Position numbers and translations under genes: made by a program. From Mesodorylaimus sp. YZB2_4 (Eukaryota > Nematoda > Enoplea > Dorylaimida > Dorylaimidae): a stretch of DNA of 64,000 nt. The notes below the pieces were generated by a model. The model was given only the letters and a program-made list of their open reading frames with translations, was not told where the DNA came from and made no database searches. This document shows positions 36,053 to 60,376 of the stretch, piece after piece. Positions within the stretch are counted from its first letter, which is position 1. Each line of letters starts with the position of its first letter. The DNA is taken from positions 23,948 to 87,947 of the forward strand of contig JASANH010000872.1 in assembly GCA_030248295.1 (NCBI GenBank), read 5' to 3'.

Positions 36053-38097
36053 ATGGCGGTCGTTGCGGCGAGGCTTCGAAAACAGCTTGCCCCTCGACGC
36101 CTAGCCCTTCGCCACCTATTCGACGCCAAACCTAACTTGGCAGTTATTAATGAAGAAACTTCTCATGAAATCGACAAGTACAAGGCCCGCTTGCGAGCGC
36201 TTTTCGAGGGCTATAAGAACAAGTACGACGACTACACGAACGCTGTGGACAATGCCGATTCGGCTGACGTGAGTTCATTACTGAAAGCGAGCAATACGCC
36301 CAATACGATATGGCAATCGCTGATATTGGCTGCTTTGAGAATCAAGTGATCGAGAAAGGAGAATGCCAGCTGAAGGCCAGGCTGGAAGAGGCCAAATTGA
36401 ACGCGGAGATCGAGCGAATTCAGGTGCAGATACGACTGCAAGAAGAGGAACAAAGAATGAGGTGGGATATACAACGAATCGAACAGCAAGCTCGAATAGA
36501 ACGTGAGCGCGTCGAGCAAGAAAGTCATAGCAACCAAGCCGTAGACAACCAAGTTGGTATGAATCAAGGCCAAAGTGGCGTCGAACAAATTCACGCTAAG
36601 TTGCCGAAACTCGAGTTGCTGAAGTTCAGTGGCGTTGGGCTGCAATTCAAGCCATTCTGGGACGCGTTCAACGCCTTGGTTCACGCGAATGATGCAGTCG
36701 CGCCTGTCACGAAAATGGCCTATCTGGTGGCTCAACTTACGGGCGATGCGAAATCAGTGGTCAATGGGTTAGCGGTCACAGGCGAGAACTACAAAACGGC
36801 GGTTCAGCTCCTCAAAGAGCGCTTTGGCAACGACCAAGAAATCATTCGAATGCACCAACGAGCCATTGTTGATCTCGAGACCGCTCGGAACATGGAAGGC
36901 TTGCGCCAACTGCAAATCAATCTCGAAAAGCATCTGCGCTCGATCGAATCACTGGGTGGCGCGGTCGATGAATTTTGGACGACATGTTTGATCTGGCCGA
37001 AGTTGCCAGCGTTTGTTCTTGAGAAGATCTACGGAAAGATGCCTGCCGAGCAATGGACGCTCAAAGAATTGCGAGCCGAGTTGACCAAGATGGTATCAAT
37101 CCATGATGCCATGCAATACGAGAAACAAAAGACGAGCCATGATCAGCTCAGTCATCGAAGCAGCGAAACGAGGGGTAAACCAAGCGTACCAAAGACGAGC
37201 CATTCGTTTCTGCTCAATAGCAAGAGTAAAACGAAGCTTACCTCAACAGCTGTCACCAAGCATGATCCGGTCAAGAGTAAGCCTCGCTCTCCATGCATAT
37301 ACTGTGGGGGCGACCACTGGGCCGATGAATGCCGACAAGTGCCCACAGTTCAAGAACGAAAGAAGAAACTCAAGGACCATTGCTGGCGATGTCTCAAACC
37401 TGGCCATCAAACTGACCAATGCTGGGCGAAAACGAAGTGCTATCATTGTCGAGACACAAGCCATCATTCAAGGCTTTGCGAAAAGCGATTAAAGGCACCG
37501 CATATGGACACTGGAGCAACCACAACGACGCTCGCTTCGGACGTAAGCACCAGTCTGTTCACATCGAATCAAGGAGTCCTTTTACAGACAGCTGTGGATG
37601 ATATCCAGTCATTGGGCCAAGCTTCCCGATCGATCAAAGGAAGAATTCTTCTCGATAGCGGTAGCCAGCGAACATATGTGACCGAAGAGCTTATAAAGCG
37701 ACTCGCAATAAAACCAACGTCGCTCGAAGCAATCATGCTGTACACATTCGGAGCCAAAGAACCAAAGCGAATCAAATTTGCAATCGTGGAGCTCGAATTG
37801 AAGGGCAAACGTGGAAAACGAATCAAAGTCGAAGTAAATGTCGTCCCGGAGATCGCTCAATCACTGGGCCGAATCGTCTCAGTGGGGGAATCGACCAAGT
37901 GGGGGAAACGACACAGTGGGGGAAACGACCAAGTGGGGGAAACGACACAGTGGGGGAATCGTCACGGGGCCTTTACTTCAATGTCTGCAAGATATGCTCA
38001 ATGCAAACTTGCTTATCACCAATGTGCGTGTTTAACAGCAAATTATAAGGGGACTGATAGTAGATATGGCCAAGTGGCCAACTTGCTGGCAGTTTAG
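36053..38097 (+). pseudogene. gag: BEL/Pao retrotransposon: Gag and aspartic protease, truncated before RT
   Basis: The Gag N-terminus is at 36,053-36,270; a small deletion then changes frame, and a 595-codon frame (36,310-38,097) continues. It contains a Glu/Arg-rich coiled coil, the DUF1759 Gag core ('LPKLELLKFSG', 'FKPFWDAFNALVH', 'LTGDAKSVVNGL'), CCHC-type zinc knuckles (CIYCGGDHWADEC, CWRCLKPGHQTDQC, CYHCRDTSHHSRLC) and a DUF1758 aspartic protease with intact 'ILLDSGSQRTYV'. Gag packages RNA; the protease processes the polyprotein. After residue about 520 the frame enters a 17-bp tandem repeat and then unrelated sequence. RT, RNase H and integrase are absent, so this is a truncated copy. 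Confidence 0.85.
37881..37965 (+). repeat. 17-bp minisatellite, five copies
   Basis: Units start AGTGGGGGAA at 37,881, 37,898, 37,915, 37,932 and 37,949, exactly 17 bp apart. Units 1 and 3 end CGACCA and units 2 and 4 end CGACAC, so a 34-bp dimer may be the real unit. It sits where the BEL protease similarity ends. Confidence 0.9.
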
Positions 38098-42326: not shown

Positions 42327-43558
42327 ATGACCATCCTCGACGACGACGACAAATATGTGCCGTGAGTGCGAAAAAGTTTTGAGATTTCTGTTTGGCGTGC
42401 GCTTCACTCATTAGATTTCTAGTTAGGCGGCCCCCAAAGCGGTGGTCGGTCATCTGAGGAAATCAGATTAAGATTCTCACTTTTGATGCCATATTTTTAT
42501 CATCCCATACGATTCACAAGTTTTGTTTATGTAGGCTCCCGCCAAGCTCTGACGAATCGGGGTCGAAAGGGTCATTGCGTCAGACTCCAACAGTCGCTCA
42601 GTCGAAATTGAAAGATAGCTCTGCGCCGCCACCCGAACCATCGGTGCATTCGGAAAAGGAATCTGTCGAAAAAACCATCGTCCTCATTACCTCGACATCA
42701 GTCTTTTCGACTGCAAACAACCAAAAAAGGGTGGTAATTGCTAGCATCTTGGGTTCTGCCTCTAAATTAGGATACAAAACTTGTTTCGCTTCGGTTCTGG
42801 CACCAAGGTACATCCTTGATTGTTCCTTAGTCGCTCCAATGCGCCAGCCACCGAAACCCGAAGTGCCTGCTGCGAATCGCGCCTATCGAACCATATACGG
42901 CTTGGACACTAGTTTCGACCTATCCAATCGAGCACCAAATCAGGGCAAACGAATCCAGACCATCCTGAATGGGAACTTGCGAGAAACCAAGGTCGTCACC
43001 GCGTCGCCGTATACGGATCTCCAAGAAAACCTCGCGAAAACTGTGATTACCAAGCAGGAAAACGCTCTATCTATGAAGACGGCAGCATTTTGAGGCTGGG
43101 GCAAGCATTCGATTCTGGTCAGAAGTGTGTCTTCATACGGGATTCCCGTGACGCTATCAACCAAACTGAAAGATGCTACGACTGCAACGAACGACGATAG
43201 GCCAACCGTCTTTCGTCCCACCACAATTGAAAAGGTGCCGACTCGTGCGTTTGCGGCCCATACACCGCAATCGACTGTCCGCTCGTCTTCTACAGTGCCA
43301 GAATCCATTCGACCAGACCGATCGTTCGCCCCGCCGAGAGAGATGCGCCAAAAGCTGAAACGACGATCGCGATCGGGCGAGCAAGCTTCTGGCGAGAAGA
43401 CGCAAGAATCGTTTGAACGAGGGCGTTCGGGCAGACGAAAAAAGAAGAAACTGAGAAAAGGTGCTACCACTGTCGCCACCACCCAAGCAACTACCACTCG
43501 ACTGGTCGATGGACGCTCAAAACAAAAAGCTCACGACATTGAATCGAGGTTTACGTGA
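42327..43558 (+). CDS. Candidate host gene, at least two exons, Ser/Thr/Arg-rich protein
   Basis: Exon 1 (42,327-42,361) reads ATG then an Ile-Leu-Asp-Asp-Asp-Asp start and ends at a GTGAGT donor. The intron (42,362-42,534, 173 bp) ends in TTTATGTAG. The second exon joins in frame and runs 186 codons, rich in Ser, Pro, Lys and Thr, to a TGA at 43,091-43,093. The same frame then stays open to 43,558 (Arg/Lys-rich, with 'RRKKKKLRK', a likely nuclear-localisation stretch), where a GTGAGC coincides with the stop and may be a donor. The protein looks disordered; no domain is recognised. The internal TGA may be a nonsense change, an assembly error or a missed intron. Codon third positions are GC-richer than the flanks, which supports real coding. 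Confidence 0.5.
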
Positions 43559-43925
43559 GCTCGTGATGTGTGATGGAAACGGAGTTGGGTCCTGCATGAC
43601 TGCTTGCTTTCCTTCTTCGTGGGCGTCCTATGATTATCTGCTCTCGTAGGCTGATTTTGGAGTAAAGCAGTCTGCAGAATAGAATTTTCTCTGTTCTTTC
43701 GGCGTTGCCTAAATTTACTACAGGAACAAAATTTGCTGGCGACATTGGTCGTTTATAACCTGCATGGTGGGAACATACTTCGTAGGATGTAGACTCCACT
43801 CGAGAACGCCGCGCCATTGACCAATTTTGATATTGCAGCTGCTTACCCCAGGTACATGCTGGCACTCATAGTATTCGGCAAGTATGAAGACCCGTTATTG
43901 GCCTCATGCAGTATATACCTGTGAA

Positions 43926-43962
43926 CTATAGTGTACCTACATGTGATGTAGGTACACTATAG
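43926..43962. repeat. Perfect hairpin: 17-bp stem, 3-base loop
   Basis: CTATAGTGTACCTACAT, GTG, then the exact inverse ATGTAGGTACACTATAG. No T-run follows and this is a eukaryote, so a rho-independent terminator is not implied. It could be the end of a tiny foldback element or a site bound by a dimeric protein. Confidence 0.9.
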
Positions 43963-44070
43963 GACTACCTCAAATTTCTGGTTCGTTGGCTCATATGAGT
44001 TTAGCGGGCTCCCGCGATAAACGATTTTTACTCTTTCAAATACAGAAGTAATTTTTGACTGCTCTTACAG

Positions 44071-44252
44071 AAAGTGAACGAAGGACAAATCTAAAGCGCA
44101 TGAGTGACAAATGGTTAGAATTTATGATTTGTCGATGGAGACACAGAAGCGAGCTCACAAAAACGCAGGAGCGGATGGCGATGCTGCATGAAGGTCACGT
44201 TGAAACTATTTACAAGGCCGCGTCAAGTCCACACGCTGGCGGGGCGGCATAA
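44071..44252 (+). CDS. Possible terminal exon, basic/helical
   Basis: A TGCTCTTACAG acceptor precedes 60 open codons rich in Arg, Glu and Met ('LKRMSDKWLEFMICRWRH'), ending in TAA. It could be a 3' exon of the gene at 42,327, but the phase does not fit the donor at 43,555, so the link is unproven. Confidence 0.3.
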
Positions 44253-44717
44253 GCGGAGATCTCTCTAAACTAATGATTTTGGGGTGTTGATGTTCAAAAC
44301 GATTCGAACACAGCCGCCCATCTGTCCACTTTCATTAGTGCTACAAATGACTTTGAACTGGTCACAGCATGTTGGACCAATCACGCGCGCGCTTACCCAT
44401 GTTTTGTGACTCTTACTTCTTTTCCGAGTCTGATCTTGACTCACTGCTGTCTCAGATCGTTTCAGTATAGCGATACTGCAGTGATCTGTTTTCATACAAT
44501 TCATACGGCGGCTCATACGGTTTTTATAAGGTTAGAGTGACTTCGGCAGTAAGATCAGGGCTCTTCTAATTTACTAGATGTTACTTCAAAAAAAAGCAGT
44601 TTCATCCCTTTTAACACACATACACTAGTTATAACAGTTTCCTCTGCCAGTCATCAGGTTTGTAAGCCGCATCATCTGAATGAACCAAGAGATTTTTAAT
44701 TGTAAAAAGTCCCCCTT

Positions 44718-44734
44718 CCCCCCCCCCCCCCCCC
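44718..44734. repeat. C17 homopolymer
   Basis: A run of 17 C preceded by CCCCCTT. One of several long G/C runs in the window (11,389; 14,214; 63,624). Confidence 0.9.
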
Positions 44735-45054
44735 ACTGTCCTTATATAAATTTTGAGATTAGCGAATAGCCTTTGTTTAGAAACATATGCATGCACATTT
44801 CGTCATCCAAGAAGATATGAAATGAGCAAAAAATTCATGAAATGACCCCGGGAAAGATAGTACATGCGGTTTGATGCGCCCTCTCATCAGGCAAGTGCAG
44901 GCTTACAAAAGGTGATCAAGAAAAATCTTGCCTGGCTACTGGCTGGTCACATGTAGTCGCTGTTTTCGGGTTGACAAGAAGACCATAACAACTAGCCTTA
45001 TTTATGTCACCAGCTTTAGTAAGGTGGCTCTCAGCATACTCAAACCAGCTCTTA

Positions 45055-45190
45055 CGCTTGGTAAAAATACTTGCTTATGCGTATACGACAAGTTAATTCA
45101 ATGCGTATGCGTATTGCATAATACGCATATTGTGTACTCCACAAAGTATGCGCTCATGTTTGCGTATTGCGTATTTTTCCTACTGTAGCT
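45055..45190. repeat. GCGTATACGC-rich repeat, copy 3
   Basis: Inverse orientation of the copy at 31,240-31,385. Both share TGGTAAAAATACTTG/CAAGTATTTATACCA at one end, the ACTCCACAAAGTATGC/GCATACTTCGTGGAGT centre, and the GCGTATTGCGTATT end. Confidence 0.7.
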
Positions 45191-45756
45191 AATGAAATAC
45201 CTAGTCCCACACTGAAATAACAGTATGCCCATAGCTGCAGTATCCGCCCCACCAGAACCACAGACGGTTTGAAGGGTAAGCGAACCGCAGCAGACGGGGA
45301 CCCCGTGTCTGCTTCGCGCGAGCGAAAATGTTACCACAGACGGTTTAATATTGCAGAACTTGTCGGTGCCGCTTATAATCAGCTTGAAAAACGTTTGCGG
45401 GGATAAATTTCTGTTAGGTTCGATCGTGGGATATATCTCAGGGCCCGGCTCAGCCAGCGACACGTTGCGGCCATTTCTTAAAAGGCGTAGTGTTTGAATC
45501 TCTAGGCACCCGCACCATGACTTGGTCAACATTGGCCAAAATATTAAAAGCAATCATATGAGCGAGAGCTAAAAGCTCGGATGATTCTACAAATCGGTAA
45601 TGCTATGTCATCTTGCTATGTTCTTCGGAGACTGCTTTGCGACCTCTCTAAAGGTCAGAAACTGCACTTTACACGAGGGGACGTTTGGAATGGTTCCGAA
45701 CACATATGCCAAGATCATGTGCTTGCTGCTCATGCTCCCCACCGTGTGCTGGTGCA

Positions 45757-45814
45757 AGTTAGCCCTCGAGTGCGCAGTACATTGCTTTGTTATGGATAAA
45801 GTATGACATGACAT
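45757..45814 (+). mobile_element. SINE-B, 3' end copy
   Basis: GTTAGCCCTCGAGTGCGCAG, then TATGGATAAAGTATGACATG: the same body and TGACA tail as at 14,275-14,338. The head lies upstream, if present, but no clear B box is seen. Confidence 0.6.
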
Positions 45815-45965
45815 TTGTAGGCGGTCTTAACCAGTAATCCATGGGCGCAAGTGCACATTCCGTTTCATGTTTCTGTTTGTCTTTGGTTTGAAAGAAGGCG
45901 TATAAAGGTCAAGTCACCCAATTCTCTCAGTTTATCTATGCGAGGACATGCGGTTTTTTTGGGCG

Positions 45966-47027
45966 AACCTAGCTTGTAGCAAAAAAACGAAAACCGGTTT
46001 TATTATTTACAAAAAAAGTTATGACAGACTCAAAACTTTTAGACCAGCCGATGCTCACAGTGGAACTAGGGCTTAGGATGGCTGGTCTACTCAGCCACAA
46101 GAAAAAGAAGAGGTGGCCCAACATGCTAGGCACTTCACACAGCGTGGAATCGCTCACACACACATACTGTATGCATGCATTGATATGTCAGCGTACCAGC
46201 TGTGCTGTTTCACATGAGCACCCTGAACACGCCAAAGCTGGCGCTGCGAGTAAAGTGATATGGCTTATCGTTTAAGGCCAAACCCTTGAGCGACACTGAG
46301 AAATGTTCCCCTCCCCCTTCTTCCAACTTCATGTTCATGCTCATGGCTTATCATATCAGTAATGAGCGATTTACCTACGCCGCGAGTCGAACACTCTCGA
46401 CTAACAATAAGAGCGACGGCCACTAAACGCATAGCCCGAGAATTAGACACTCCTAGCCCACTTTCTGGACTACGAGCACAGGATTGCATGGTCCTCCGCT
46501 CGTTGTCACGATAAGTCGTCGTGTTTGTATTTTTTTTTTTGTGGGGTGGGTCCTGCGCCGCCTGAGTTCCCCACGGGACTTCCAACCCGTTATGCCTATA
46601 GCCGGCCAGCAGTCATGATATGCTAAGCGAGGCCGTGAGGTGACCAGCTCTCACGGCAGCGTCCCTCTGCGCGTCTCCACTAGGAGCACCTCCACGCGAG
46701 GGCATCCTAGACCAGGCACCGACGGATCGAACCCGGAACGAGTCCAGCCACACGCTCCCAAGCAATACGGGGAGACGAATGCCGAACCGCTGCACCACCG
46801 CGGCCGCTAAGTCGTCCTGTTGATATTCATGCAGAAAAAGCAGCTTCTGCTTAGACATATTCCCTAAACCGTGGTTGCGCTTAGCAGTGGCCGAGTAGAC
46901 CAGCCATCCTGAGCTCTGGTTCCGCTGTGAGCATTGGCTGGTCTGAAAGTTTCAAGTCTGTCAGAACAGACTTTTTTTGAAATAATTCTTACTAGGCTGG
47001 GGTACGACTCGAGCCAGCTAGGTGTTA
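45966..47027. mobile_element. Long-inverted-repeat element with nested SINE
   Basis: 46,021-46,105 (ATGACAGACTCAAAACTTTT, then AGACCAGCCGATGCTCACAG and GGATGGCTGGTCTACTC) is repeated in inverted form at about 46,893-46,985, with roughly 85-90% identity by eye. The outer parts also match (ACCTAGCT at both ends). The interior has no transposase and carries the SINE-A copy. It is best read as a non-autonomous foldback or DNA element; exact ends and target duplication are uncertain. Confidence 0.6.
46610..46808 (-). mobile_element. tRNA-derived SINE (SINE-A), best copy
   Basis: On the minus strand the head reads GCGGTGGTGCAGCGGTTCGG (A box) and, after about 45 bp, CCGGGTTCGATCCG (B box, 46,722-46,736). 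The body has GAGGTGCTCCTAGTGGAGAC and GAGAGCTGGTCACCTCACGG. It is found again, truncated or diverged, at 18.9 kb and 31.7 kb. A non-autonomous element transcribed by RNA polymerase III; partner LINE not seen. Confidence 0.75.
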
Positions 47028-47139
47028 CTAGGTATGCATCGCAGTAATGCCCCAGATAAAGGTCTAGACTGCCCTTTGAAAAAACACTGCTTTCCTGACA
47101 CCCAACAATATTTTAAGCGAGCAGATTATTAACATGCAC

Positions 47140-47280
47140 ATTTTTCAAAAATACGATATTTAAGGCGTTAACGATATTTTTTAAAACGCGTTAACCACTA
47201 ACGATAACGACATCTTTTAAGCGCTTTATCGCACGGCTGACGATAACGGTATATTTTTTTGCTAACCATATCAACCTTAA
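47140..47280. repeat. GTTAACGATAAC-rich degenerate repeat
   Basis: TAACGATA/TTAACG units recur at least five times, with AAAACGCGTTAACC and TTTTAAGCGC between them. This may be part of a degraded inverted-repeat element just outside the gypsy insertion. Confidence 0.4.
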
Positions 47281-47395
47281 AACCCCCCTTGGTTAATTTA
47301 TGATATAAGTCACGCCGAAAAATAAATTTTCGCTTTTCATTTTAAACGATACCTTTAAGATACCCTCTGTTAGTAGATACCCCCCAGTGTGCAGC

Positions 47396-47786
47396 TGAAA
47401 TCCTTGGCTCGCCCTAGGGCACACTAGGGCTGACCAGAGGATGGCCCAAGTCAGGAACAGTACCACGCAGTCCACGGACACCTTGTAATATCGTTTATTG
47501 CCACCACACCACAAGGGCCGTGTAGACTCACAATTCGGGGAGCAGCCGCACGTGTCGGCCGTCAAAGGGGTTCTGACGGGCCTGAGCCCGAAGTGCTCAC
47601 AGAGCAGTTCAGATCAGGTGATCCAGACTAGTTCTCAACTGATGTCTGCAATCAGACCAGCCACTCGACCTCAACCTCGCTCTCAGTCTCGTGCTGGCCC
47701 TGACATAGGAGAGGCGGACCGGTTCCCTGAACCAGTACACACATAGGCCGGAGGACATGACACATGCCTAGTCCATGCCTATTACA
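47396..47786 (-). repeat. Gypsy 3' LTR
   Basis: Same as 58,753-59,143 except about four substitutions (three near 47,640-47,660 and one near 47,749). Begins TGAAATCC and ends ATTACA on the plus strand. Confidence 0.95.
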
Positions 47787-47800
47787 TTCCTCCCCTCCTT
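47787..47800 (-). promoter_or_regulatory. Polypurine tract
   Basis: AAGGAGGGGAGGAA on the minus strand, immediately upstream of the 3' LTR, as required for plus-strand DNA priming. Confidence 0.85.
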
Positions 47801-49877
47801 AAAAGAAGCGTGACCCCACGCTTCCCGTGAAAAGTAGGGCACCTTCGATTAAGGGATCCGGAGAAAAGTCCAGGTCGTCAGGCTAAGAAAGCAGAGATCA
47901 GAGACTGAACCAGTGGGAGAAAGGTCCAGCAAAAGGCGAGACCAGGGCGTAACCGGAGTCAGTGGAGACCAAAACGGATAGTCCACTGCCGTCGTCCAGC
48001 GAGTCCCCCAGGTGACACGAGCATAAGCGACTCCCCAGACGGCCCTATGGTCCACCGAGGCGCACACCAAAGTACCTGGGTTCAGCAATGCTCAACACCA
48101 CACGTCAACCCAGCCCCAATCACAACATCACAGAACATCACACGTTCTTCATGGCTGGGCGACGGCTGCTGAAATGGAAGAGGAGCACCACCCAGGCACA
48201 CTGCCAGAGAATCATCGAGCAATGGGAGACCCCGTGACCTAAGCATGACCCTGAAGCCCGAAAAGGGGTCAAGGATCGTGCATTGACACAACCAGGGATC
48301 GCCCAGTATGTGCGCAAACTTGGTGTGAACAGAGACCAGAAACAGTCCAGACTCTGTAACCCAGTCCAGATGACGAAAGACTGGGCGGGCAAATAATGCA
48401 CCAAACCTCAGCAAATCAAAAATAATCCCCACAAAATCTACCACACGGCTGAGGCTGGGCCAGAAATAGTCTAGCCCATAAAGAAAACAGGACCGAAAAG
48501 AGTTCAGTCCGTAAAATACCCACGCAAACACACACAGGGTTAATCCAATTAGCCAAAAACCCTGTTAGCCCAACTTACGACGAATCACTCCACCATCGGC
48601 ACCGGGCAAGGAATCGCCTCGCCGGCCACCGTAGCTGCGACGAACTCATCGCCATCAGCCGACATCCGAACGTCCGAAACCAAAGATTCGTCGTTGCAGA
48701 ACGGGAAACCACCACCAACCGGATCCAATCGTCGAACGAAGCAAATAGCTGACGCGACGGCCAATCCATAATTGTCCACGGCTGGTCCATGGGGACGCCG
48801 GCGATGTCAGAAGCCGGTCGGAATGCCGTGGGGTAATGCGGTAAATAGAAGAAGGGTTTGCGAATCACCCATCGTTTGAATCCACTGGCACCATGAATCA
48901 CGACCGCTGCTGGACAGTCGAACTGCAGCTCGTAGACGTACCGCGACATATCCTGGCCGAAACACAACGGAACCATGAACGAGTTCCTTTATTGTGGAGG
49001 CGCGACCATCGAAAACCCGAAGGGAACACCGTTCAGGTCCGCAAACCGAACCAGAGGCCACATGGCGGTCTAGTTCAGCGACTTCGCATGAACCATCTCA
49101 GATTTTGGCATCCAAGTCACGCAACCCATTCGCAGTATCGACGGGCAGACCCAAATACAGATAACTGCCTTATCATGATACATAACTGCCATATCCGAGG
49201 CACCGGCCACTGAAGCCATAACGGGTTCAGTGCTGGGTGCTGAAATCGTTGCTGAGAAAATGGGAGCACTGGCGACCGAAGCCATCGCGGGTTCAGTGCC
49301 AGGTCCCGTCGTGTCCATAGCCGATGAAGATGCGTCGGCCACCGCAGCCTGTGCTGAAACGGTGCCGGACGTCGCTGACGAGATCGAGGAATAATCCATT
49401 CCGATACCCGCGACCGAAAAAACGAATACTCGAAAATAATACCTGAAATAACCAACACCTGAGTACGACAAGGCGCAATACCCGTACCGGTGATACCGAC
49501 TAAATACTTGAGCAATTCCTTGCGGAATGCACCGAGATTTGACGAAAAATAAAAGAATTATTCACCGGGTCTAAAGCTCTCATTTTTTAAAGCTCGAGAC
49601 ACCCAGCCAACCAACCAAAACGAAATTAGTACCAAAACGATTAGTAAGGCACTAATTGAGACCAAAAAGAAAAAGAAAACGAAAACCCAACACCAAAAAA
49701 TCGAATGATCACCGATCGATCGAAAAATCAAACGAAAATAACTTGTGGCGTCACGCGAGCCCACCTTAGGAAAATTTTCCAGGCGGCGCACATGACGAGA
49801 CCATCTTGAAGTAGACCTACTGAGCAACGTGTACCACCACGAAGATGCTCAGGCGCGGGAAGTTCAAATTCCGAAAA
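47801..49877 (-). pseudogene. Post-pol region of the gypsy element; decayed ORF of unknown function
   Basis: Between the pol stop and the polypurine tract lie about 2.1 kb with several minus-strand open segments (49,070-49,471; 48,575-48,976; 48,082-48,531). The 48,575-48,976 frame continues upstream in frame past a TAA (just above 48,976) for about 25 codons, which suggests a longer ORF broken by a stop. The 49,070-49,471 segment is Ala/Ser/Thr-rich and repetitive. I see no fusion-peptide, furin site or clear envelope signature, so I do not call it env. It may be an accessory or captured gene. Confidence 0.45.
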
Positions 49878-52505
49878 TCACATATCGCAGTCCAGATGCA
49901 CACAGGGCGCATAGGGGCAGCGATACACTGAAGTGAATCGGACCGGAGCTGTACCTCCGTCAAGATTGGCCTCTGGCAAAGTGCCAGCCAATCGCATATC
50001 TTCGATTGCACAAATCGCTTGGTGAATCGCTTCCTTCAAACGACCCACCTTACCCTTGTGCTTCTGGGGAATGAAATTCTTTAATTTCAGCTTTGCCTGG
50101 AAGAACTGCTGATGCGTGGCAAAATCGCGTATCGCTGTTTCCCGCAGAACCGCATACTCCCCGTCATCGTTCAGGAACTGCACCTGATATACCTGTTCCA
50201 GGTTGACCTTGGACACGGAAGACGCATGTGCCTTCTTGATCGGTGCATCGTCGAGGTCACCAGGGCACGAATCCGGGCCCAGGCCTGTAATACGACCTGG
50301 CCACCACAGAAAACCCATGACCTTTGCCCAAACGTACTGACCAACGTGGAAAGATTGCGTAGCAGGCGGGACAGTCATCGTCGAACTTGTATTCGAGGTA
50401 GGCTTGTCCTGTAATGGAATAGGCTGATCAGCATTATCTGCACTACCCTCCACCTGCTCTGAAAGACCCATGTCCTTCGTCGGTATGCGCTCTGCATCAG
50501 CGGACACATCTTCCACTGCCGCAGCTCGTTCCAGGCGTTCCGTCGTCTTGACTAAATGCTGTGGGTGCCATCGTTCAATCGGCTTCGACGGATCCTGCAG
50601 ATTGCGGATCAACACGCCCGACTCACCCATCAGCTTCACCACTTCGTATGGACCTAACCAGTGAAAACTCAATTTCCTAGAAAGGCCAGGTTTGAAGTGA
50701 TAATTCGGCTTACGAACCCAATCTCCAACTTTCAACGACAGAGGACGTGCCGTTTTGTCATACTGCAACTTCTGACGAAACTGATTGAGTTCGATGTTCT
50801 GACGTACCTTCGCATCGATACTTGCCATGCGGATCCGCAAGTGATCCACATACTCAGTGCCTTGTACCGATTCGGTACGAGGTTGAGCGAGCAAAGTATC
50901 CAATGCCGTGGGCGGGTCCCTTCCATGCGACATGAGATACGGGGAAACACCCGTCGTCGTGTGCGGTGTATGCCGATAATGCATCATTATCAGCTGCAGT
51001 CGGTTATCCCAATCATGTTGATTAGGATGCACGTAGCATGCCATGGAGAACCCGATTAACTTGTTCAAATTTTCGACATTACCATTGCATTGCGGGTGAT
51101 AGGGTGTTGTCGAGACTTTCTTCACTCCCAGTTCCTTGCAAAGTCGTAAAACGAGCTTTGACAAGAAATTAGAGCCCCGATCGCTAAGGAGCACCCGAGG
51201 ACATCCGTGTCGAGTGATCCACCCATCGACAAGCAGGCGAGCAATGCGTGCTGCCTTTTGATCGGGCACCGCATATGCCTCAGCCCACTTGGTGAATATG
51301 CACATAATCACAACCACGAACCTGTTACCATGATCAGAGGTTGGAAATGGACCTTGTACATCGATGGCAATCATGTCGAAAGGCGCTGTGCGTTTAATGA
51401 TCTCTAACGGCGGTCGTTCGTATCGATGAGGTGCCCTAAAACGCGCACACGTATTGCACTCGGCACACCAGGCCCTGAGATCGCGTCGCATCGTGGACCA
51501 GAAATACTTGATCCTCAGCGCAGAGAACAGTCGATCGAAACCAGGGTGGTTCGCATCCTTATGGGCAGCATCGAAAATGAATCGACGCAGCTCTGACGGG
51601 ACCACCACTCTGTCGTGAAGATACGTTCCTTCGACCAACCTGCTCTCGTGATGCCATCTGTGCATAAGAATGCCCTCGTCGTCCAGCAGATAGCTCTTCG
51701 CCAAATTCGCGATTCTGGGAGGTTGATTGTAATCACCCTGCAAAAATGCAATGATACGTCCCATTTCGTCATCATCCCGCTGCATCTTCTTCAGAAGGTC
51801 CCGGGATGGTGCATCAGGAAATGCATCGGCTGCTATTTTAGCCATGTCAATCCCCAACTCGTCCGATTCCAATTGCGTTGCCGGATCTAATTCGTCCCGC
51901 AACTCCAAATCGCATTCAGAGTCGGAGTCGTCGGAGAGATTGACATCCGGTTGCACTTCTAATTCCAACGTGGCATCTGTGTCTGGAGACCCTACCGTAG
52001 TCCAGACAGATGCTCCCACCACATGTTTCGCTTCTGCAATCGCGACGGCACATTCATTGAACATGCCCTCATATCCATCTTCATTACACTCCTCAGAGAT
52101 TGAGTCTAAGGGACCAGACGATGCCAGAGCAACAAAGTGGTCTAGCCAATTGACTGGGAGAGGCACTGGTAGGACCTCACGCACTGGAGCCAATGGGATA
52201 TCGTCGATAATCGCGCTTGGAGCCTCCACCACAGACTCGTCCTCGCTTCCCGTATCCGTTGCTGCCGTGACGCAGATCATGGGTACACCGGGCTCTGTGA
52301 CAGGAGTTTGCTCACCGTCACCATCAGTCGCTTCGCCACCGTTGGAGATACCAGAATCCAACTCGATCGTGACTGCTTGCGGCAATAAGGCGATCAATGC
52401 GGAAGGGCCACACGTCGAACACCGTTTGGTGGGTGACAATGCCGAGAACAGCGTAGCATCGGCTGCTGGCATGCATGATAGAAAATCGGCGGCGCCATTG
52501 TCACA
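49878..52505 (-). CDS. pol: Gypsy pol: integrase with C-terminal PWWP domain
   Basis: The frame (864 codons counted from 52,472) follows the RT/RNase H frame after one TGA. After an acidic linker (to about residue 230) comes the HHCC zinc finger (H304, H309, C339, C342). The DDE core follows with D371 ('IAIDVQGPFP'), D431 ('LLSDRGSNF') and E467 ('GNVENLNK'), giving a canonical D-X35-E. The GPY/F module is at 605-625 ('WLGPYEVVKLM'). Residues 708-800 form a PWWP domain: 'VGQYVWAKVMGFLWWPGRI', a loop, then 'VYQVQFLNDDGEYAVL' and a C-terminal helical part. PWWP domains bind methylated H3K36 nucleosomes through an aromatic cage; W724 aligns with the cage Trp of LEDGF. In chromoviruses the same position carries a chromodomain. 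The core is uninterrupted, which argues for recent constraint. Confidence 0.92.
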   Translation of the reverse strand, partial: CDNGAADFLSCMPAADATLFSALSPTKRCSTCGPSALIALLPQAVTIELDSGISNGGEATDGDGEQTPVTEPGVPMICVTAATDTGSEDESVVEAPSAIIDDIPLAPVREVLPVPLPVNWLDHFVALASSGPLDSISEECNEDGYEGMFNECAVAIAEAKHVVGASVWTTVGSPDTDATLELEVQPDVNLSDDSDSECDLELRDELDPATQLESDELGIDMAKIAADAFPDAPSRDLLKKMQRDDDEMGRIIAFLQGDYNQPPRIANLAKSYLLDDEGILMHRWHHESRLVEGTYLHDRVVVPSELRRFIFDAAHKDANHPGFDRLFSALRIKYFWSTMRRDLRAWCAECNTCARFRAPHRYERPPLEIIKRTAPFDMIAIDVQGPFPTSDHGNRFVVVIMCIFTKWAEAYAVPDQKAARIARLLVDGWITRHGCPRVLLSDRGSNFLSKLVLRLCKELGVKKVSTTPYHPQCNGNVENLNKLIGFSMACYVHPNQHDWDNRLQLIMMHYRHTPHTTTGVSPYLMSHGRDPPTALDTLLAQPRTESVQGTEYVDHLRIRMASIDAKVRQNIELNQFRQKLQYDKTARPLSLKVGDWVRKPNYHFKPGLSRKLSFHWLGPYEVVKLMGESGVLIRNLQDPSKPIERWHPQHLVKTTERLERAAAVEDVSADAERIPTKDMGLSEQVEGSADNADQPIPLQDKPTSNTSSTMTVPPATQSFHVGQYVWAKVMGFLWWPGRITGLGPDSCPGDLDDAPIKKAHASSVSKVNLEQVYQVQFLNDDGEYAVLRETAIRDFATHQQFFQAKLKLKNFIPQKHKGKVGRLKEAIHQAICAIEDMRLAGTLPEANLDGGTAPVRFTSVYRCPYAPCVHLDCDM
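50073..50351 (-). other. PWWP domain coding segment within integrase
   Basis: Codons for residues about 708-800 of the integrase frame. The signature is 'GFLWWP' (50,298-50,315), with Leu in place of the first Pro. It is preceded by 'VWAK', the usual first strand, and followed after an approximately 30-residue insertion by a strand with 'VQF'. A Thr/Ser/Pro-rich linker of about 60 residues separates it from the GPY/F region. Confidence 0.88.
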
Positions 52506-54400
52506 TCATTTCGCGTGTGTAATGCTGAAAGTATAATCTTGCAATTGCATAAGCCACTTACCGCGACGTCCTTCCAAGTCCTTCTCCTTGTACCAGTACA
52601 AGAGAGGCTTGTGATCCATGTACACTTCGAAGGACCATCCGTATAAATAATGTCGATATTGTTTGATCGCCCAATGAATAGCAAGGCACTCCCGATCGAT
52701 CGTCGGGTGCCTCTGCTCGGCTGGTGACAGAGTTCGTGAGATGAACCCAATAGCCCATGCGTGCTTCGGCTTCTTCGGATCATACTGCTCCAGGACAGCA
52801 CCTATGGCAAAACTACTTGCATCAGTGCTGAGTCTGAAAGGCAGTGAGAAGTCAACATATCGCATGACTGGATACGTTACCAGTGCTTCTCGCAGATCTT
52901 CGAATTCTTTTTGATGTGTATCCGTCCATTCCCATCGCACGTTTTTTTTCAAGAGTTCTCGCAGAGCCTTGGTTCTACGAGCAAACCCCTCGACGAACGA
53001 TCGATAGTAACTGGCCAACCCCATAAATTTGTGGAGTTGGTCTGTGTTCGTCGGAATTGGGAAATTTTGGATTTTGTCCCGCTTATCATCTGTGATCGAA
53101 ACACCCTCGGCACTAATGCAATGGCTCAAGTACTCGACTCGGTCCATGCCAATAGCGCACTTGGATGGTTCAAGCATCAGATGTGCCTCCCGCAGACGTC
53201 CAAATACTGTGTTCAGATGCTCGACATGTTCGTCCAGTGTCTTGCTGAACACGATGATATCGTCCAGATAGCATAGGGTGTAAATCCACAGCAATCCAGA
53301 CAATGTCATCTCCATGCACCTTTGGAACTCCGCAGGTGCGTTGCAGAGTCCAAATGGCATGTTGACGTACTCCCAGAAGCCGAAGGGGCAAACGAATGCC
53401 GTTTTTTCAGCCGTTTCTGGGTCCAAGGGTATTTGACTATACCCCGACGTCATGTCGAACACTGAAAAATACTTCGACCCACGCAGTGCATCCAACATTT
53501 CATGAATGTTGGGCAGTGTGTGGGCGTCCTTCTTCGTTACCTTATTGATGGCACGGAAGTCGACGCACATCCTCCAATCGCCCGTTTTCTTGCGCACCAA
53601 TACGATCGGCGATGCCCATGGAGAACGTGAGGGTCGAATCCACCCCAGGCGCAATAACTTCGCGACTCCCTCCTGGATGATTGGCTTCTGACTTTCGGCT
53701 AGTCGTCGAGGACGGGCCATGATTGGTTTTGCGTCCCCGGTATCGATATGATGTTTAGCCAAATGTGTGCCACCAATTTCTTCCTTTTTCAGGGTGAAGA
53801 CGTCCGAATTACATGCGACCACCGCACGGACACGCTGTTCGTCTCGCTCTGAAAGGTTGCCATTTCCGAATTTGAGCTTACCCAATAGTTCTTTTTGACG
53901 CTTCGGATCATGCTGGTCAATCGGAGCTCGGTGTAGGCGATTGGGCTTCGGCCGCCCATCTTTTTTCCATGCCGTGTGCAGCCACAGTTCTTCATGTCTC
54001 ACGAATTCGACCTCAGGCCTGATTGGCGTGTATGAACCAGGCGCCAACTCTGCGGGTTGATCCGAAATAACCGCCTTAATCCTCCAAAACGGAGGCGCTT
54101 TCTTGTCGAACGGAAATGGACTTGGTATTTCCCATTGTAGACCAGATTTCCCTGGATCCGTCCTCCGATTGTAACGGAATGTCACTCGGAACGGTTCCAA
54201 CTCAGAGAGAAATCCCACATTCATATTTCTTGGCAGAATCTGAGCCACTTCTGCCAGATTCACTAAAGGGACCAGAAATTGTCCGGTCCTTTTATCAGGT
54301 CGTACCACAGTCCTGGGCATCATGACTGGTAGTTCCATAGGCATCGGGTCGAAGAGCACATCGCGTCCCCGATATACGACGAGGTGCGACGGCTGTGGTG
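52506..54400 (-). CDS. pol: Gypsy pol: reverse transcriptase and RNase H, ended by a TGA
   Basis: 617 codons in the same frame as integrase (54,359-52,506). The N-terminal part resembles the spacer after protease ('LFDPMPMELPVMMPRTVV'). RT has 'GWIRPSRSPWASPIVLVRKK', 'RMCVDFRAIN', 'FSVFDMTSGYSQI', 'FGLCNAPAEFQRCM' and the catalytic 'YLDDIIVFS'. RNase H has its acidic residues in 'LSTDASSFAIGAVL', 'IDRECLAI' and 'VYMDHKPLL'. It makes DNA from the element RNA. The stop TGA (52,506-52,508) falls inside the conserved RNase H tail, just before 'CDNGAADFLS', so it is a nonsense change and not the natural end. Another TGA lies at 54,402-54,404. All catalytic residues are intact. Confidence 0.93.
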
Positions 54401-54552
54401 ATCACATGCCGACGAGCTCCAACCTGAGTGGCGTTAGCCATTCGAGCGGATGCTCGGAATAAGTCTTGAGGCGTACGATGCACTGGTACGTCAACACCGG
54501 CCAACGCACCAGCCGTGTACCGAACTCATTCTTGGTCGGTATCGTATTGCCA

Positions 54553-54906
54553 TCAATGCAGACTCGTGTTGAAATCTTCTCCCAGTAGCACGGAATATTT
54601 TTCATACTCTGAAACGTAGAATGGGACATTAGGTGCAATTTTACCACTGATTTTGATATCCAAACGAGCAATGCCAATAATTGGCATCGGTTTACCATCC
54701 CCATCAACACAATGATCGATGTCTGGGGGCTCCAGTTTGGACCGATCGTATCGTTTTCGTTCTATCGCTTTCATTGTTTCCTCTGAAATCAGGGTAATTC
54801 TTGCACAACTATCCACATACGCACGAGTCTTATGACGACTAATCGAGACGTCAATCTGCGGAAGAGACAGACGTCTCGTTACCATCGTTCGCCCATCGCT
54901 CGCCAT
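54553..54906 (-). CDS. Gypsy aspartic protease, altered active site
   Basis: A 117-codon frame lying in +1 relative to Gag and with RT in +1 relative to it. It has the retropepsin pattern: 'AYVDSCARITLISEE' (active-site turn), a middle strand 'MPIIGIARLDIKI', and 'YSVLLGEDF' near the end. In active enzymes the turn reads Asp-Ser/Thr-Gly; here the Gly codon is TGT (Cys). The frame stays open upstream of its ATG back into the Gag 3' end, so expression by frameshifting is possible. The match ends at 54,553, after which the similarity continues in the RT frame. Protease function is doubtful. Confidence 0.75.
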   Translation of the reverse strand: MASDGRTMVTRRLSLPQIDVSISRHKTRAYVDSCARITLISEETMKAIERKRYDRSKLEPPDIDHCVDGDGKPMPIIGIARLDIKISGKIAPNVPFYVSEYEKYSVLLGEDFNTSLH

Positions 54907-55006
54907 GCATACACCGTACGGCCCGTAGCCTGCCTCTGCAAAAGATAGTTTTACAGTGGGTACGTTCTGGGGGGGGAAGGGAATAAATAGTGGATAGGCG
55001 GCACAC

Positions 55007-57130
55007 TCAGTGGTGTACCGCCTTCCTCACGTTTTTTGAAGCGGTTGTTCGTTCGATTGGTTCTTCCTCCTTCACCTCCACTGGCTGTGTCTTCTTCCAA
55101 TGGTACGGACTTTCATCTCGAATTCTGGCGCTACACTGCATCAAGGAGTGTGACCTATCCCCACACTGACCACATGGAGAGGAGCAGTCTCGGGCATAGT
55201 GACCACTGCCCTTGCAGTTAAAGCAAACTACCTTACCGCTCTCTCTCCTGCTGTCGGACGAATATTTGTCACTGTCCTGCGCCCGTTTGTTCCAGCGTGG
55301 CGCTGAAGAATTGGGTCGTGAATCGCTGAACGATGTCGATCGGTCACGACGATTGTACTGTCGATGGTCACTTTGGCGCGTCTTCTGCTGCCTCGAATAC
55401 CATTGCTTTTGGTCGTCGTCGCTCGACTGGTACCTCGTGCTGTACCGTCCACGCCACTGGCCGCGTGAGCGCATCTGGCCACCCGAATCGAATTTCGGTC
55501 GTGACGTGGTACGATTGAAACGAGCGTACCCTTGATCGCCGTATGGATTGGGGCGATTCTGATTCGGTCGATTTTTGTTGCCGAATCGCGACTTCGTGAA
55601 TCGAACAGCAGGCATCTCATCGCTGCCTCCATCGTTCGTCATACCTGACCCATCGTCAGCATCGAAGAATTCGCCCTCTGAACTTGATGCATCTCCGTAC
55701 CTCGCACTCGCCATCATCGCCTTAGGCGTCGTACCCCTGTCAACAAGGTCAGATTTCATAAAGCTTTCTAACTCACAAGCTAGATGAACTCTTCGTTCCA
55801 AACCTGGTGGAGACTGTTCCACCAAGATTTGCTGCATCAATCGTTTCTTCAGAGGTTGCGTCAGGCCCACTGTGAACTGGAACGAGAGTTCTTCCTTCAA
55901 TCGTTCCGTGTCAGATTCTGGATACAATTGGGTACCCAGATCACACAACCGTTCCATGTATTTGATGACCGGTTCGCTCGCCTTCTGCACGCAGCTTTGG
56001 AACCTCATTCGGCGCTGCTCTGCGGATAATTGGCGATCGTAAATATCGGCCATCGCTTTCCTTGCTTGTTCGTACATAGATTTCTGTTCGGGCGACAATA
56101 ATGCCCATGTCGTCGCCGCTGCTTCTTTCATGCAACTACCAAAGTATGTTAGTTTAGTAGTTGCGTCAGCCGCTGCCAGTGCACTTTCGAACTGGCGTAA
56201 CCAAACTCGAAATTCGCCATCCATGCCGCCCCGAAAAGGGTCGAGACGTTGCATGGGAGGAAGTGGTAACATTGGTTTTCGCGGAGCCCATTGACGAGGT
56301 CCTCGGGGCGGATATCGTCCGCCTCCTCGTCCTCCACGTCCATCGTCGCCGTTATCCGATTCACTGGATCCGTTTCCATCGTCGTCATCTGGTGGGTCAC
56401 CTCGTTGACCTCCGCGATGATACTGTCTGCCGCTCGTTCGCTGGGGAGGGTAGAGATGATATACCGTTGGTACCTGTCCCACGTGATCGTTGACTGGCGC
56501 TGATTGACGGCCAGGTGCATTCGCTGCCAAGTTGACCCAATGCGGGTTCCCTTGGGCGTTGTACAGCACTGTTGGTTGCTCTTGCTGTTGTGCCGACGCC
56601 TCTGAGCACCTGACGGTACTCAGGCCTGTCGACGCACGGGGGGCCACATTCAGGGTTGTCGTTGTCGTAGCAGCCTGTTGCCTCGATGTACCGATCGTAT
56701 TCGCATCACGCAAGTTTGGCGGAATCGCGAATGGAAACTTGATCGGCGGATAATCTGGAAAACCAGTTTTAGGGTTAATCTGAACCTTACCTTCAGATAC
56801 CAACCGCAAACGATACTGTTCCATCGCGTCACGGGTACGCTGATAATGCTTATGGAGCTCTTCCTGGTACCCTTCTGGATCGTCTCGTCGTTTCCGCAGC
56901 ATCGCATCGCGTTCTTGTTGCGTGAAGAAATCGAGGAACCAGTGGTCCCACTCCGTCAGGGCGGGATACACCGGCCGTGGCTGCTGTTGCTGGTCTTTCG
57001 ATTCTTGTGGCTTCATCAGATCCGCGAATCGTTGTTCCATTCGCTGGATCGATGCATTGATCTCAGCTTCCTCCAAATCTTTATTCGTCTGCGTGAACGG
57101 CGACAGTGGCCGTTCTTGGTCACCAGCCAA
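55007..57130 (-). CDS. gag: Gypsy Gag with two CCHC zinc knuckles
   Basis: A long frame (to 707 codons). The first ATG in it is at 57,040. The central part has the retrotransposon Gag core ('LDPFRGGMDGEFRVWLRQFE', 'WALLSPEQKSMYEQARKAM', 'GLTQPLKKRLMQQI'). It is followed by an Arg/Ser-rich basic stretch and two zinc knuckles: CFNCKGSGHYARDC and CGQCGDRSHSLMQC, both C-X2-C-X4-H-X4-C. It forms the capsid and binds RNA. The frame is the same as that of the upstream ORF, separated only by a TAA (57,206-57,208), and the intervening codons are open. So the two could be one long ORF broken by a stop, or be linked by readthrough. Confidence 0.9.
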   Translation of the reverse strand: MAGDQERPLSPFTQTNKDLEEAEINASIQRMEQRFADLMKPQESKDQQQQPRPVYPALTEWDHWFLDFFTQQERDAMLRKRRDDPEGYQEELHKHYQRTRDAMEQYRLRLVSEGKVQINPKTGFPDYPPIKFPFAIPPNLRDANTIGTSRQQAATTTTTLNVAPRASTGLSTVRCSEASAQQQEQPTVLYNAQGNPHWVNLAANAPGRQSAPVNDHVGQVPTVYHLYPPQRTSGRQYHRGGQRGDPPDDDDGNGSSESDNGDDGRGGRGGGRYPPRGPRQWAPRKPMLPLPPMQRLDPFRGGMDGEFRVWLRQFESALAAADATTKLTYFGSCMKEAAATTWALLSPEQKSMYEQARKAMADIYDRQLSAEQRRMRFQSCVQKASEPVIKYMERLCDLGTQLYPESDTERLKEELSFQFTVGLTQPLKKRLMQQILVEQSPPGLERRVHLACELESFMKSDLVDRGTTPKAMMASARYGDASSSEGEFFDADDGSGMTNDGGSDEMPAVRFTKSRFGNKNRPNQNRPNPYGDQGYARFNRTTSRPKFDSGGQMRSRGQWRGRYSTRYQSSDDDQKQWYSRQQKTRQSDHRQYNRRDRSTSFSDSRPNSSAPRWNKRAQDSDKYSSDSRRESGKVVCFNCKGSGHYARDCSSPCGQCGDRSHSLMQCSARIRDESPYHWKKTQPVEVKEEEPIERTTASKNVRKAVHH

Positions 57131-57205
57131 TTCGTCATTGCCTTGACCATTGCCACTTGTCTGTCCTTCTTTATTCGATTCCAGTGACTTTCGGATATTG
57201 GTGGC

Positions 57206-58447
57206 TTAATGCACCATTTCTGATAATTCTTCTCGCAGGTTGCCCAGTGGGTTGAGACCAGACACCTGCCAATTCGTTGCGGTTAGGGTGCCATTGGCGC
57301 CCAACCTTGTCGAAGTCGAAGCTTGGTCGCTTGCTGGTGAAACATGCAAGCCCACCTGCTGCTGTTGATCGTCACCAGGACCAGTAGATTGACCAGTCCT
57401 GGCCGGTGTAGTGTAGGTCAACTGGTATGCGCGTTCCGTCCACCATTGCTGGATCGGATCCCAAATATACGCTCCAGTGACGAAAGCCAGCTGCAATGGC
57501 AAATACACGTGACAACGAGCCAAATCAAAATTACCTGACTGGGTGAAATATTCGTTCGCTGCCTCTTGGAGCCAGTCCTTCGTTGGAACTAGCAGTTCTT
57601 CGGCTTTGATCGTCTTGGCTGGTGCTCGACCATGGATCAGCCAGTAATAGGCGATCGCGTACTGGTACAGTTCACGCCGTAGGATATCGAGCAATTCGTA
57701 TTTGTTCGTTTTCGTCCAGCTAGCCTGTGGCCAAACCCCGGACCAGCCCAGACACTCGATCCAACGTTGGATGGTTTCGATATCCTTGCACTGTAAGATA
57801 TCTTTTCCCGTTAGTGCACCAGTTCCTACGGGAGGGGCGTTCTGACTGTCCATCCTCATACCCGATGAGGAGGTACCAGCCGCTTGGTCTTCCACGATCG
57901 TCGCCACTGACTGTGTGCGTTCGACAACCATAGTCGGCACCGTGTTTGGTCTAGTGTCTTCTGTCTGGTCCGCTTCCCTGGGCAATGATCTAGTACCTTT
58001 GGGGCGAGGACCCGTTGCTAAATCCCGAACCCAAGACGGTGTACTTACTACAGTCGAAGTAACCGCTGTCGTTATCGCCGGGAAGATCGTTGTTGTGGCT
58101 CTGGCAGCCTCCGTCGGAATGGCTGACAGGCGCTGATCTGAGGTACCCGCTCTGTTGATCGATGCCATCGTCTCACTCGTTCCACCCAGGCCGAGACGTT
58201 GTAAATGGTCTGTCTCGGACGTCCGTTGTTCCTTCGCTCGTTGTTGTGCCATTGTTGCTTGGACGGGCAATTTCGAATGACCAGACGGAGGAGCAAGCTC
58301 GTCCATCACTCGGTCCGCACCTCGGGTAGAAGGATTGTCCACCCTTTGGCGTGTATTGTAATAATGCTTCGGTGGATGACTTCCACCTTGATTCTTCTTC
58401 GTCGGATCCATGCCGATCGAATTTATGCGTCCGTTCACTAGACACAT
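57206..58447 (-). CDS. Gypsy upstream ORF, unrecognised (Gag N-terminal part?)
   Basis: About 414 codons from the first ATG (58,447; another at 58,411) to TAA. The N-terminal two thirds are low-complexity and Thr/Arg/Gln-rich. The last 140 residues look folded, with conserved-looking Trp residues ('CLGWSGVWPQASW', 'QYAIAYYWLIHG', 'YIWDPIQQWW'). No family recognised. It lies where a Gag matrix region would be, in the same frame as Gag, 76 bp before the annotated Gag frame. A matrix-like role is an inference from position. Confidence 0.65.
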   Translation of the reverse strand: MCLVNGRINSIGMDPTKKNQGGSHPPKHYYNTRQRVDNPSTRGADRVMDELAPPSGHSKLPVQATMAQQRAKEQRTSETDHLQRLGLGGTSETMASINRAGTSDQRLSAIPTEAARATTTIFPAITTAVTSTVVSTPSWVRDLATGPRPKGTRSLPREADQTEDTRPNTVPTMVVERTQSVATIVEDQAAGTSSSGMRMDSQNAPPVGTGALTGKDILQCKDIETIQRWIECLGWSGVWPQASWTKTNKYELLDILRRELYQYAIAYYWLIHGRAPAKTIKAEELLVPTKDWLQEAANEYFTQSGNFDLARCHVYLPLQLAFVTGAYIWDPIQQWWTERAYQLTYTTPARTGQSTGPGDDQQQQVGLHVSPASDQASTSTRLGANGTLTATNWQVSGLNPLGNLREELSEMVH

Positions 58448-58736
58448 CGGAATAAAAAGAATAACACGCGTGCGAGGGCTCACCTCAGCCTAACACGTGA
58501 TACTTGGCAACTCGCCAAGACAAACAATACTCAATGTTCTCGACGAGAATAATACTCGACCGAGCCTAAAACCAACTCGTGGCGATGTCCAAAAAGAGTT
58601 TAGACTTTGCACGTGCACGTCGAACGTCGACGGAATAATAATATCGCCGAAAAGTCAATATTAAGCAGCTCGGCGCTACTCAAACCGACACGCTTGACCA
58701 CTCCTGAATTGCGTTGGTAAGCTAACCCAAACGTGG

Positions 58737-58751
58737 CTGTTCGCGACGCCA
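58737..58751 (-). promoter_or_regulatory. Primer-binding site
   Basis: TGGCGTCGCGAACAG begins one base after the 5' LTR on the minus strand. It starts with TGG, the complement of the CCA end of tRNA. The tRNA was not identified. Confidence 0.75.
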
Positions 58752-58752
58752 G

Positions 58753-59143
58753 TGAAATCCTTGGCTCGCCCTAGGGCACACTAGGGCTGACCAGAGGATG
58801 GCCCAAGTCAGGAACAGTACCACGCAGTCCACGGACACCTTGTAATATCGTTTATTGCCACCACACCACAAGGGCCGTGTAGACTCACAATTCGGGGAGC
58901 AGCCGCACGTGTCGGCCGTCAAAGGGGTTCTGACGGGCCTGAGCCCGAAGTGCTCACAGAGCAGTTCAGATCAGGTGATCCAGACTAGTTCTCAACCAAT
59001 GTCTGCAATCGGACCAGCCACTCGACCTCAACCTCGCTCTCAGTCTCGTGCTGGCCCTGACATAGGAGAGGCGGACCGGTTCCCTGAACCAGTACACACA
59101 TAGGCCAGAGGACATGACACATGCCTAGTCCATGCCTATTACA
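58753..59143 (-). repeat. Gypsy 5' LTR
   Basis: Partner of 47,396-47,786. It should contain the element's promoter and polyadenylation signal; no TATA box stands out. Confidence 0.95.
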
Positions 59144-59332
59144 CAGCCTGTTACAAATAGTCTCCTTCTGAGGCCCCGACTAGCTCTTCGGCGTGATCAT
59201 CGGAAGGACATGATAAGACTCGGTTTTTAGATTATTTCACTTTTATAGCAATATTCCAATACCGACAAAAGATCCGTTGGATCCGCCGTGTCATCAGGAA
59301 ATCATCATATTTCTTGACTTCATATTCCTCGG

Positions 59333-59599: not shown

Positions 59600-59650
59600 T
59601 TGGGACGCCCATGGTGTAAATGCGTGCTGCTTCGCTGGCTTTGTCTACAG

Positions 59651-60376
59651 GTTAGTCGAAACTAGTACTGCGAGAAAACGCTGGAGATGTGTTCGAAAGG
59701 ATTGCGCTGGCAAATTATGGACAACAATCCAAAATACTGCTCCTATTCCACGCGGCGACCACAATCATCTGCTAGATTCGGATCAAGCAATTGTAAAGGA
59801 AGCTGTATATGAAATGAAGGGAAGGGCTAAGAATGGAACAGTTCCAATTCCCACTATTTATTTGGAATCTGGGAGAATTTTCATGGACGGAACCTTCGAT
59901 GTGGCACCGCTGTTTCACCAGCAAGTGTTCACCATTTATGCCTTCATCTCGAACATTCAATTTCCTTTGCTTATCTGCGTACTGCCGGACAAGACAAGGA
60001 ACACATACAAGGCGTTGTTTCGGTAAGCTTGGAGCTTGGAGTAAGCGTATTGCGTTAGCCGACAGATTTTTTCCCAGGATGTCGAAAGATAAGGCTGTCG
60101 AAATGGGTCTTCAACTAGCGCCGCCCGTCATCACGTCAGATTTCGAAAGTAGATTGATTTCAGCCATTGCTAAGGAATTCCCAAACGCTCGCCATCTTGC
60201 GTGCTTTTACCACTCTTGTCAATGTATACATCGACGAGTTCAGCGTCTAGGTAACGAACTATTGTACATGCAAGATTGATTTTGAATGTTTGCTGCGTTG
60301 TAGGTTTGTCAGACCTGTACACGAATAACGAGAACATTCGAATTCAAATCCGTAATTCCTTCAGAATGTCAGCCTG
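59651..60376 (+). CDS. Mutator-like (MULE) transposase with FLYWCH finger, three exons
   Basis: Exon a (59,651-60,022) follows a TTTGTCTACAG acceptor. It encodes the end of a FLYWCH zinc finger ('KRWRCVRKDCAGKLW', 'GDHNH') and the MULE core start ('IFMDGTFDVAPLFHQQVFTI', first Asp; 'LLICVLPDKTRNTYKALF'). Intron 60,023-60,077 (55 bp, GTAAGC..CCCAG). Exon b (60,078-60,250) has 'PPVITSDFESRLISAI' (second Asp) and 'ARHLACFYHSCQCIHRRVQ'. Intron 60,251-60,303 (53 bp). Exon c (60,304-60,376) has 'LSDLYTNNENIRIQIR' and ends at a GTGAGA donor. Both introns preserve phase, so this stretch is intact. MULE transposases cut and paste DNA. Later exons with the third acidic residue and zinc knuckle were not found. 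Confidence 0.8.

Follow-up and report, generated by a model that had tools for sequence, protein, structure and literature searches.

The sequence supports the view that a PWWP domain is fused to the integrase of a Ty3/gypsy element. The element is an 11.7-kb LTR retrotransposon that lies on the minus strand (positions 47396-59143) of the window, i.e. the whole stretch of 64,000 nucleotides analysed here from Mesodorylaimus sp. YZB2_4. With a probability of roughly 0.6, we consider that the PWWP domain is a built-in tether of the integrase to H3K36-methylated nucleosomes and gene bodies, both the binding and the targeting being predictions drawn from a single copy of the element.

The integrase frame and its PWWP domain

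The integrase-PWWP frame found by ORF analysis (49878..52505, minus strand) extends over 875 codons between two stops, one at 52506-52508 and the other at 49878; considering the base composition alone (GC 0.52), the chance of such a frame staying open is about 1e-17. Residues are numbered from the first ATG (52472), which gives a protein of 864 amino acids. This frame encodes, on the minus strand, the zinc-binding (H2C2) domain of integrase (residues 291-347, 51432..51602; Pfam Integrase_H2C2, 7.5e-15), the integrase core (residues 362-460, 51093..51389; Pfam rve, 5e-11) and a GPY/F module (residues 604-650, 50523..50663), the last recognised by its motif and by alignment with Ty3. The catalytic residues D371, D431 and E467 are all present, with 59 and then 35 residues between them, and E467 is located just downstream of the rve match. 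GPY at 607-609 aligns with the GPF segment of Ty3, and the Pfam family SH3_Tf2-1 was matched at only 0.055. Moreover, the best match of the integrase among solved structures is Ty3 (6.5e-23), and its core aligns with the integrases of Ty3 and PFV. NCBIfam gave only matches to IS481 and IS3 transposases, both below the cut-offs. Behind the GPY/F module, the same frame continues through about 55 linker residues into the PWWP domain (residues 711-820, 50013..50342, minus strand), whose segment has a GC3 of 0.59 as compared with 0.49-0.55 in the other integrase segments.

In the whole protein, the Pfam PWWP profile (PF00855) was matched at E=1.8e-9 over profile positions 1-89 of 93, with 38.4 bits against a curated cut-off of 25.6. 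The tail alone gave 7e-11 (165 aa) and 3.2e-11 (127 aa), and the scores ranged from 38.4 to 44.0 bits overall. A chance match was rejected by the shuffle control, in which none of the five shuffles matched PWWP; in one of them an unrelated family came up at 0.32, short of the cut-off of that family. The sequence-only reading had proposed this profile check on the translation of 49,878-52,505 and had claimed that the integrase frame continues unbroken into a PWWP domain behind a DDE core and a GPY/F module, all of which agrees with the open frame, the residues and the significant profile match described above. It had also placed the PWWP signature at 50,298-50,315 (minus strand), where GFLWWP (residues 720-725) is indeed found. 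A chromodomain in place of the PWWP domain was rejected, since no chromodomain family was matched in the integrase protein at E up to 1 in Pfam; in this respect the element differs from the chromoviruses.

A search of the sequences of solved structures with the PWWP domain gave 37 different sequences with E-values of 1 or less. The top match is a chain of DNMT3B, aligned in two stretches (7.2e-6 jointly, 0.069 for each alone), followed by NSD3 and NSD2 (0.0017-0.0021) and DNMT3A (0.0029); the aligned pieces of NSD3 and NSD2 are 30-31% identical to the domain. As these single-sequence matches are modest, the case for PWWP rests on the Pfam profile. The signature includes two putative cage residues, F721 and W724, and the third, F766, lies in the stretch that runs to the acidic E772 (50157..50177, minus strand, from the alignment). 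In the sequence alignment only, F721, W724 and F766 fall on Y281, W284 and F312 of NSD3, the first of them being Phe here and Tyr in NSD3. Together with E772 they presumably also fit Tyr22, Trp25, Phe48 and Glu53 of HRP3, as judged by eye against the HRP3 sequence. The cage of the NSD3 PWWP domain is described as Trp284, Tyr281 and Phe312 (PMC8398374), and in HRP3, whose cage is given as Tyr22/Trp25/Phe48, Glu53 is reported to touch dimethyl-lysine (PMC6547440). Since the NSD3 cage positions fall on F721, W724 and F766, and E772 roughly corresponds to Glu53 of HRP3, a methyl-lysine pocket could be formed. At the position of Met15 in LEDGF there is a Val, as in NSD3 (by eye). Residues 706-830 contain 16 K+R and 13 D+E, and since the segment is almost neutral, a strongly basic DNA-binding surface is not evident. 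In two AlphaFold runs from the single sequence without an alignment, the mean pLDDT was 32.6 and 33.8, and no confident barrel was obtained.

Boundaries, layout and age of the element

The 5' LTR (58753..59143) and the 3' LTR (47396..47786), both on the minus strand and defined by alignment to each other, are 391 bp each, start with TG and end with CA, and differ by 4 mismatches without gaps (98.98% identity). They are flanked by a 4-bp target-site duplication, GCTG, with the upstream copy at 59144..59147 and the downstream copy at 47392..47395. In addition, two features were seen by eye on the same strand: a sequence resembling a primer-binding site, which starts with TGGCG and adjoins the 5' LTR (58734..58751), and the purine tract AAGGAGGGGAGGAA, which adjoins the 3' LTR (47787..47800). 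Because the LTRs are 99% alike, the copy should be young and should have moved with the PWWP domain already in place. Furthermore, the open frame sits inside the LTRs and the target-site duplication, which argues that the domain is part of a recently moved element; a neighbouring host gene as its source was rejected on the same ground.

The internal order between the LTRs is gag, protease-like region, RT, RNase H and integrase (the protease match being just under its cut-off), which is the order of Ty3/gypsy elements. Both this order and the zinc finger (HHCC), DDE core and GPY/F of the integrase, as used here for assignment to Ty3/gypsy, were found. At the 5' end there is an ORF of 425 aa (57206..58483, minus strand) in which the Pfam scan found no family. 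It shares its reading frame with the gag ORF, with at least one stop in between, and could be either an extra ORF or a long N-terminus of gag. The gag ORF (55007..57130, minus strand) encodes a CCHC zinc knuckle (Pfam zf-CCHC, 2.9e-6) and shows a weak similarity to PNMA capsid (Pfam PNMA, 0.012, below its cut-off). The aspartic-protease-like region (54553..55026, minus strand; gag-asp_proteas, 7.2e-6, 27.0 bits against a cut-off of 28.2) is in a frame different from those of gag and RT, and does not run through into RT. It carries DSCA at 54802-54813 (minus strand), a site at which gypsy proteases usually have DSGA or DTGA. The ORF for reverse transcriptase and RNase H (52506..54359, minus strand; RVT_1, 4.2e-34, and RT_RNaseH, 9.1e-33) is in the same frame as the integrase and, from the ORF coordinates, is parted from it by one stop codon (52506..52508, minus strand). 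The sequence directly after this stop, NGAADFLS, presumably resembles the end of the gypsy RNase H connection. Between RNase H and the zinc-binding domain of the integrase, about 280 residues (51633-52472, minus strand) appear acidic by eye and have no Pfam match.

Downstream of the integrase frame, a 3' region of 2.1 kb (47787..49877, minus strand) has no recognised domain: of its minus-strand ORFs, three of 137-163 aa were scanned and none scored above a Pfam cut-off. A 34-bp sequence is repeated (at 85%) within this region, which could represent the remains of an additional gene. Considering the stop between RNase H and integrase, and the protease-like frame that does not continue into RT, the copy looks damaged and is probably not autonomous. 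The same features would be seen if the family had a way around such stops and frame changes; a single copy is compatible with both.

No second copy of the element was found within the window, the sole repeat matches being the element itself and the short repeat inside the 3' region. In the window, neither Rfam (at gathering scores) nor the tRNA prediction by ARAGORN gave a match, and the flank beyond the 3' LTR (42535-47390) showed no Pfam family in six frames at E up to 0.01. On the other side of the element, a short way outside the 5' LTR, a decayed transposase is located at about 59620-60225 on the plus strand (MULE, 1.4e-6), with a FLYWCH zinc finger in another frame (0.0017, under its cut-off). 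Elsewhere in the window, an ORF on the plus strand (36268-38097) has matches to DUF1759 (4.2e-25), Asp_protease_2 (5.8e-6) and DUF1758 (4.3e-5) in Pfam, and we take it to be a gag-protease of the BEL/Pao type. This ORF and the MULE/FLYWCH remnant suggest an animal genome rich in transposons.

Reader domains in other elements and in host proteins

Chromoviruses likewise have a Ty3/gypsy integrase with a C-terminal reader of a histone mark. The group I chromodomains of these elements are reported to have an aromatic cage (PMC3605345), and chromodomains are described as setting the target preference in chromoviruses (PMC3605345, citing Gao 2008). In contrast to them, the reader in the present element is a PWWP domain and not a chromodomain, and it is predicted to read H3K36me on active genes and not H3K9me. 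In the Gypsy elements of Ectocarpus, readers are reported to have been captured independently at the C-terminus of Pol: three lineages have chromodomains, and another one, Gypsy-10_Ec32, has a Tudor domain, which to the knowledge of the authors (in 2025) had not been reported in any TE before (PMC12477816). The oomycete Chronos is also reported to have captured a chromodomain (PMC5348765). Thus, the readers in Chronos and in the Ectocarpus lineages are chromodomain or Tudor, whereas that in the present element is PWWP, a word that does not occur in the accessible text of PMC12477816.

Lentiviruses offer a different comparison. The HIV-1 integrase has as its cofactor LEDGF, a protein with a PWWP domain that binds H3K36me3 (PMC8149907). 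The lentiviral integrase with LEDGF/p75 is linked to H3K36me3 chromatin via PWWP (PMC8149907), a link that is only predicted for the present element; in HIV-1, however, the PWWP domain belongs to a host protein that binds integrase, while here it is inside the integrase frame. Among solved sequences, the nearest are the PWWP1 domains of NSD2 and NSD3 and the PWWP domains of DNMT3A and DNMT3B, which share with the element the aromatic residues at the three cage positions of NSD3 but are parts of host chromatin enzymes.

Neither a relative of the integrase nor one of the RT was found in viral contigs, a collection ill-suited to eukaryotic elements, and the PWWP alignment gave 26 pattern-matching stretches there, none of them confirmed. 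In prokaryotic genomes, 8 stretches matched the integrase and 2 the RT, again with none confirmed. Such collections are poor places for a eukaryotic element, so these misses say little. No fusion of PWWP and integrase was present among the matches listed from the full text of 5.39 million open-access papers. Two papers with the right words deal with another idea as far as their accessible text goes, namely DNMT3 losing its PWWP domain (PMC12460157) and a plant AP2-PWWP fusion (PMC9817154). Since these matches come from open-access papers, a PWWP-tailed integrase may be described elsewhere, e.g. in subscription journals, in preprints or in Repbase. The novelty suggested by the sequence-only reading, which knew of no described lineage of this kind, therefore stands in part: no PWWP-tailed integrase appeared among these open-access matches, but the capture of readers by gypsy integrases was already established. 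Such readers are known to have arisen on gypsy integrases several times in evolution, and PWWP would be a new reader type among them.

Possible role of the PWWP domain and its alternatives

According to the tether reading, the PWWP domain would bind the H3 tail methylated at K36 through F721, W724 and F766, with the help of E772, and would bind nucleosomal DNA in addition. During cDNA insertion, this binding would hold the integrase complex on transcribed gene bodies. One protein would then do what lentiviral integrase and LEDGF do as two, and the PWWP domain of the integrase would be the active-chromatin counterpart of the chromodomain in chromoviruses. The PWWP domain of PSIP1/LEDGF is reported to bind the H3K36me3 peptide and DNA weakly, and to bind H3K36me nucleosomes about 10,000-fold better than the peptide, which requires the cage and the basic surface together (PMC3663649). 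A wider form of the proposal is that a whole Ty3/gypsy lineage took its PWWP domain from a host and uses it as a built-in LEDGF. The integrase of such a lineage would read H3K36me unaided and would insert into genes that are transcribed, a preference opposite to that of chromoviruses; we put this forward tentatively and lean slightly against it.

Three other explanations have to be considered. The domain might be a general clamp for nucleosomes or DNA, or a reader of another methyl mark (e.g. H4K20), without any H3K36 targeting. DNA binding by PWWP domains is reported to be non-specific, and the PSIP1 PWWP domain is reported to bind the peptide alone weakly (PMC6547440, PMC3663649); PWWP domains can also bind DNA independently of a histone mark. 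However, aromatic residues occupy all three NSD3 cage positions, which a pure DNA clamp need not keep, and we regard this explanation as unlikely, if well worth weighing. The counterparts of W724 and F766 in PSIP1 may also serve the hydrophobic core (PMC3663649), and by analogy W724 and F766 may do so here, which would temper the argument from the cage.

That a single copy is known would also fit a private fusion, in which this copy or a small subfamily recently took up a host PWWP exon without a selected role. This seems improbable to us considering that the signature and the cage residues are kept in the domain, that the join through the linker is in frame, and that domain and integrase are close in base composition; moreover, the domain is bracketed by the LTRs and the target-site duplication, and so was mobilised with the copy. 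Finally, the structure prediction from the single sequence, with no confident barrel, would also fit if the match were PWWP-like by chance, or if a chimeric assembly had joined the integrase to a host PWWP gene. Such an artefact is very hard to reconcile with the E-value of 1.8e-9, the result of the shuffles, the single open frame, and the intact LTR pair and target-site duplication on either side, and we give it hardly any weight.

If the tether reading is true, a gypsy integrase is predicted to favour active gene bodies over silent chromatin, which raises the question of how an element that aims at genes survives. Insertion maps of families bearing PWWP, chromodomain and Tudor readers would be a test of the weight of the reader domain in the placement of retroelements. 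If the domain works, integrase and its PWWP tether would be present in one polypeptide, an arrangement that lentiviruses reach through LEDGF.
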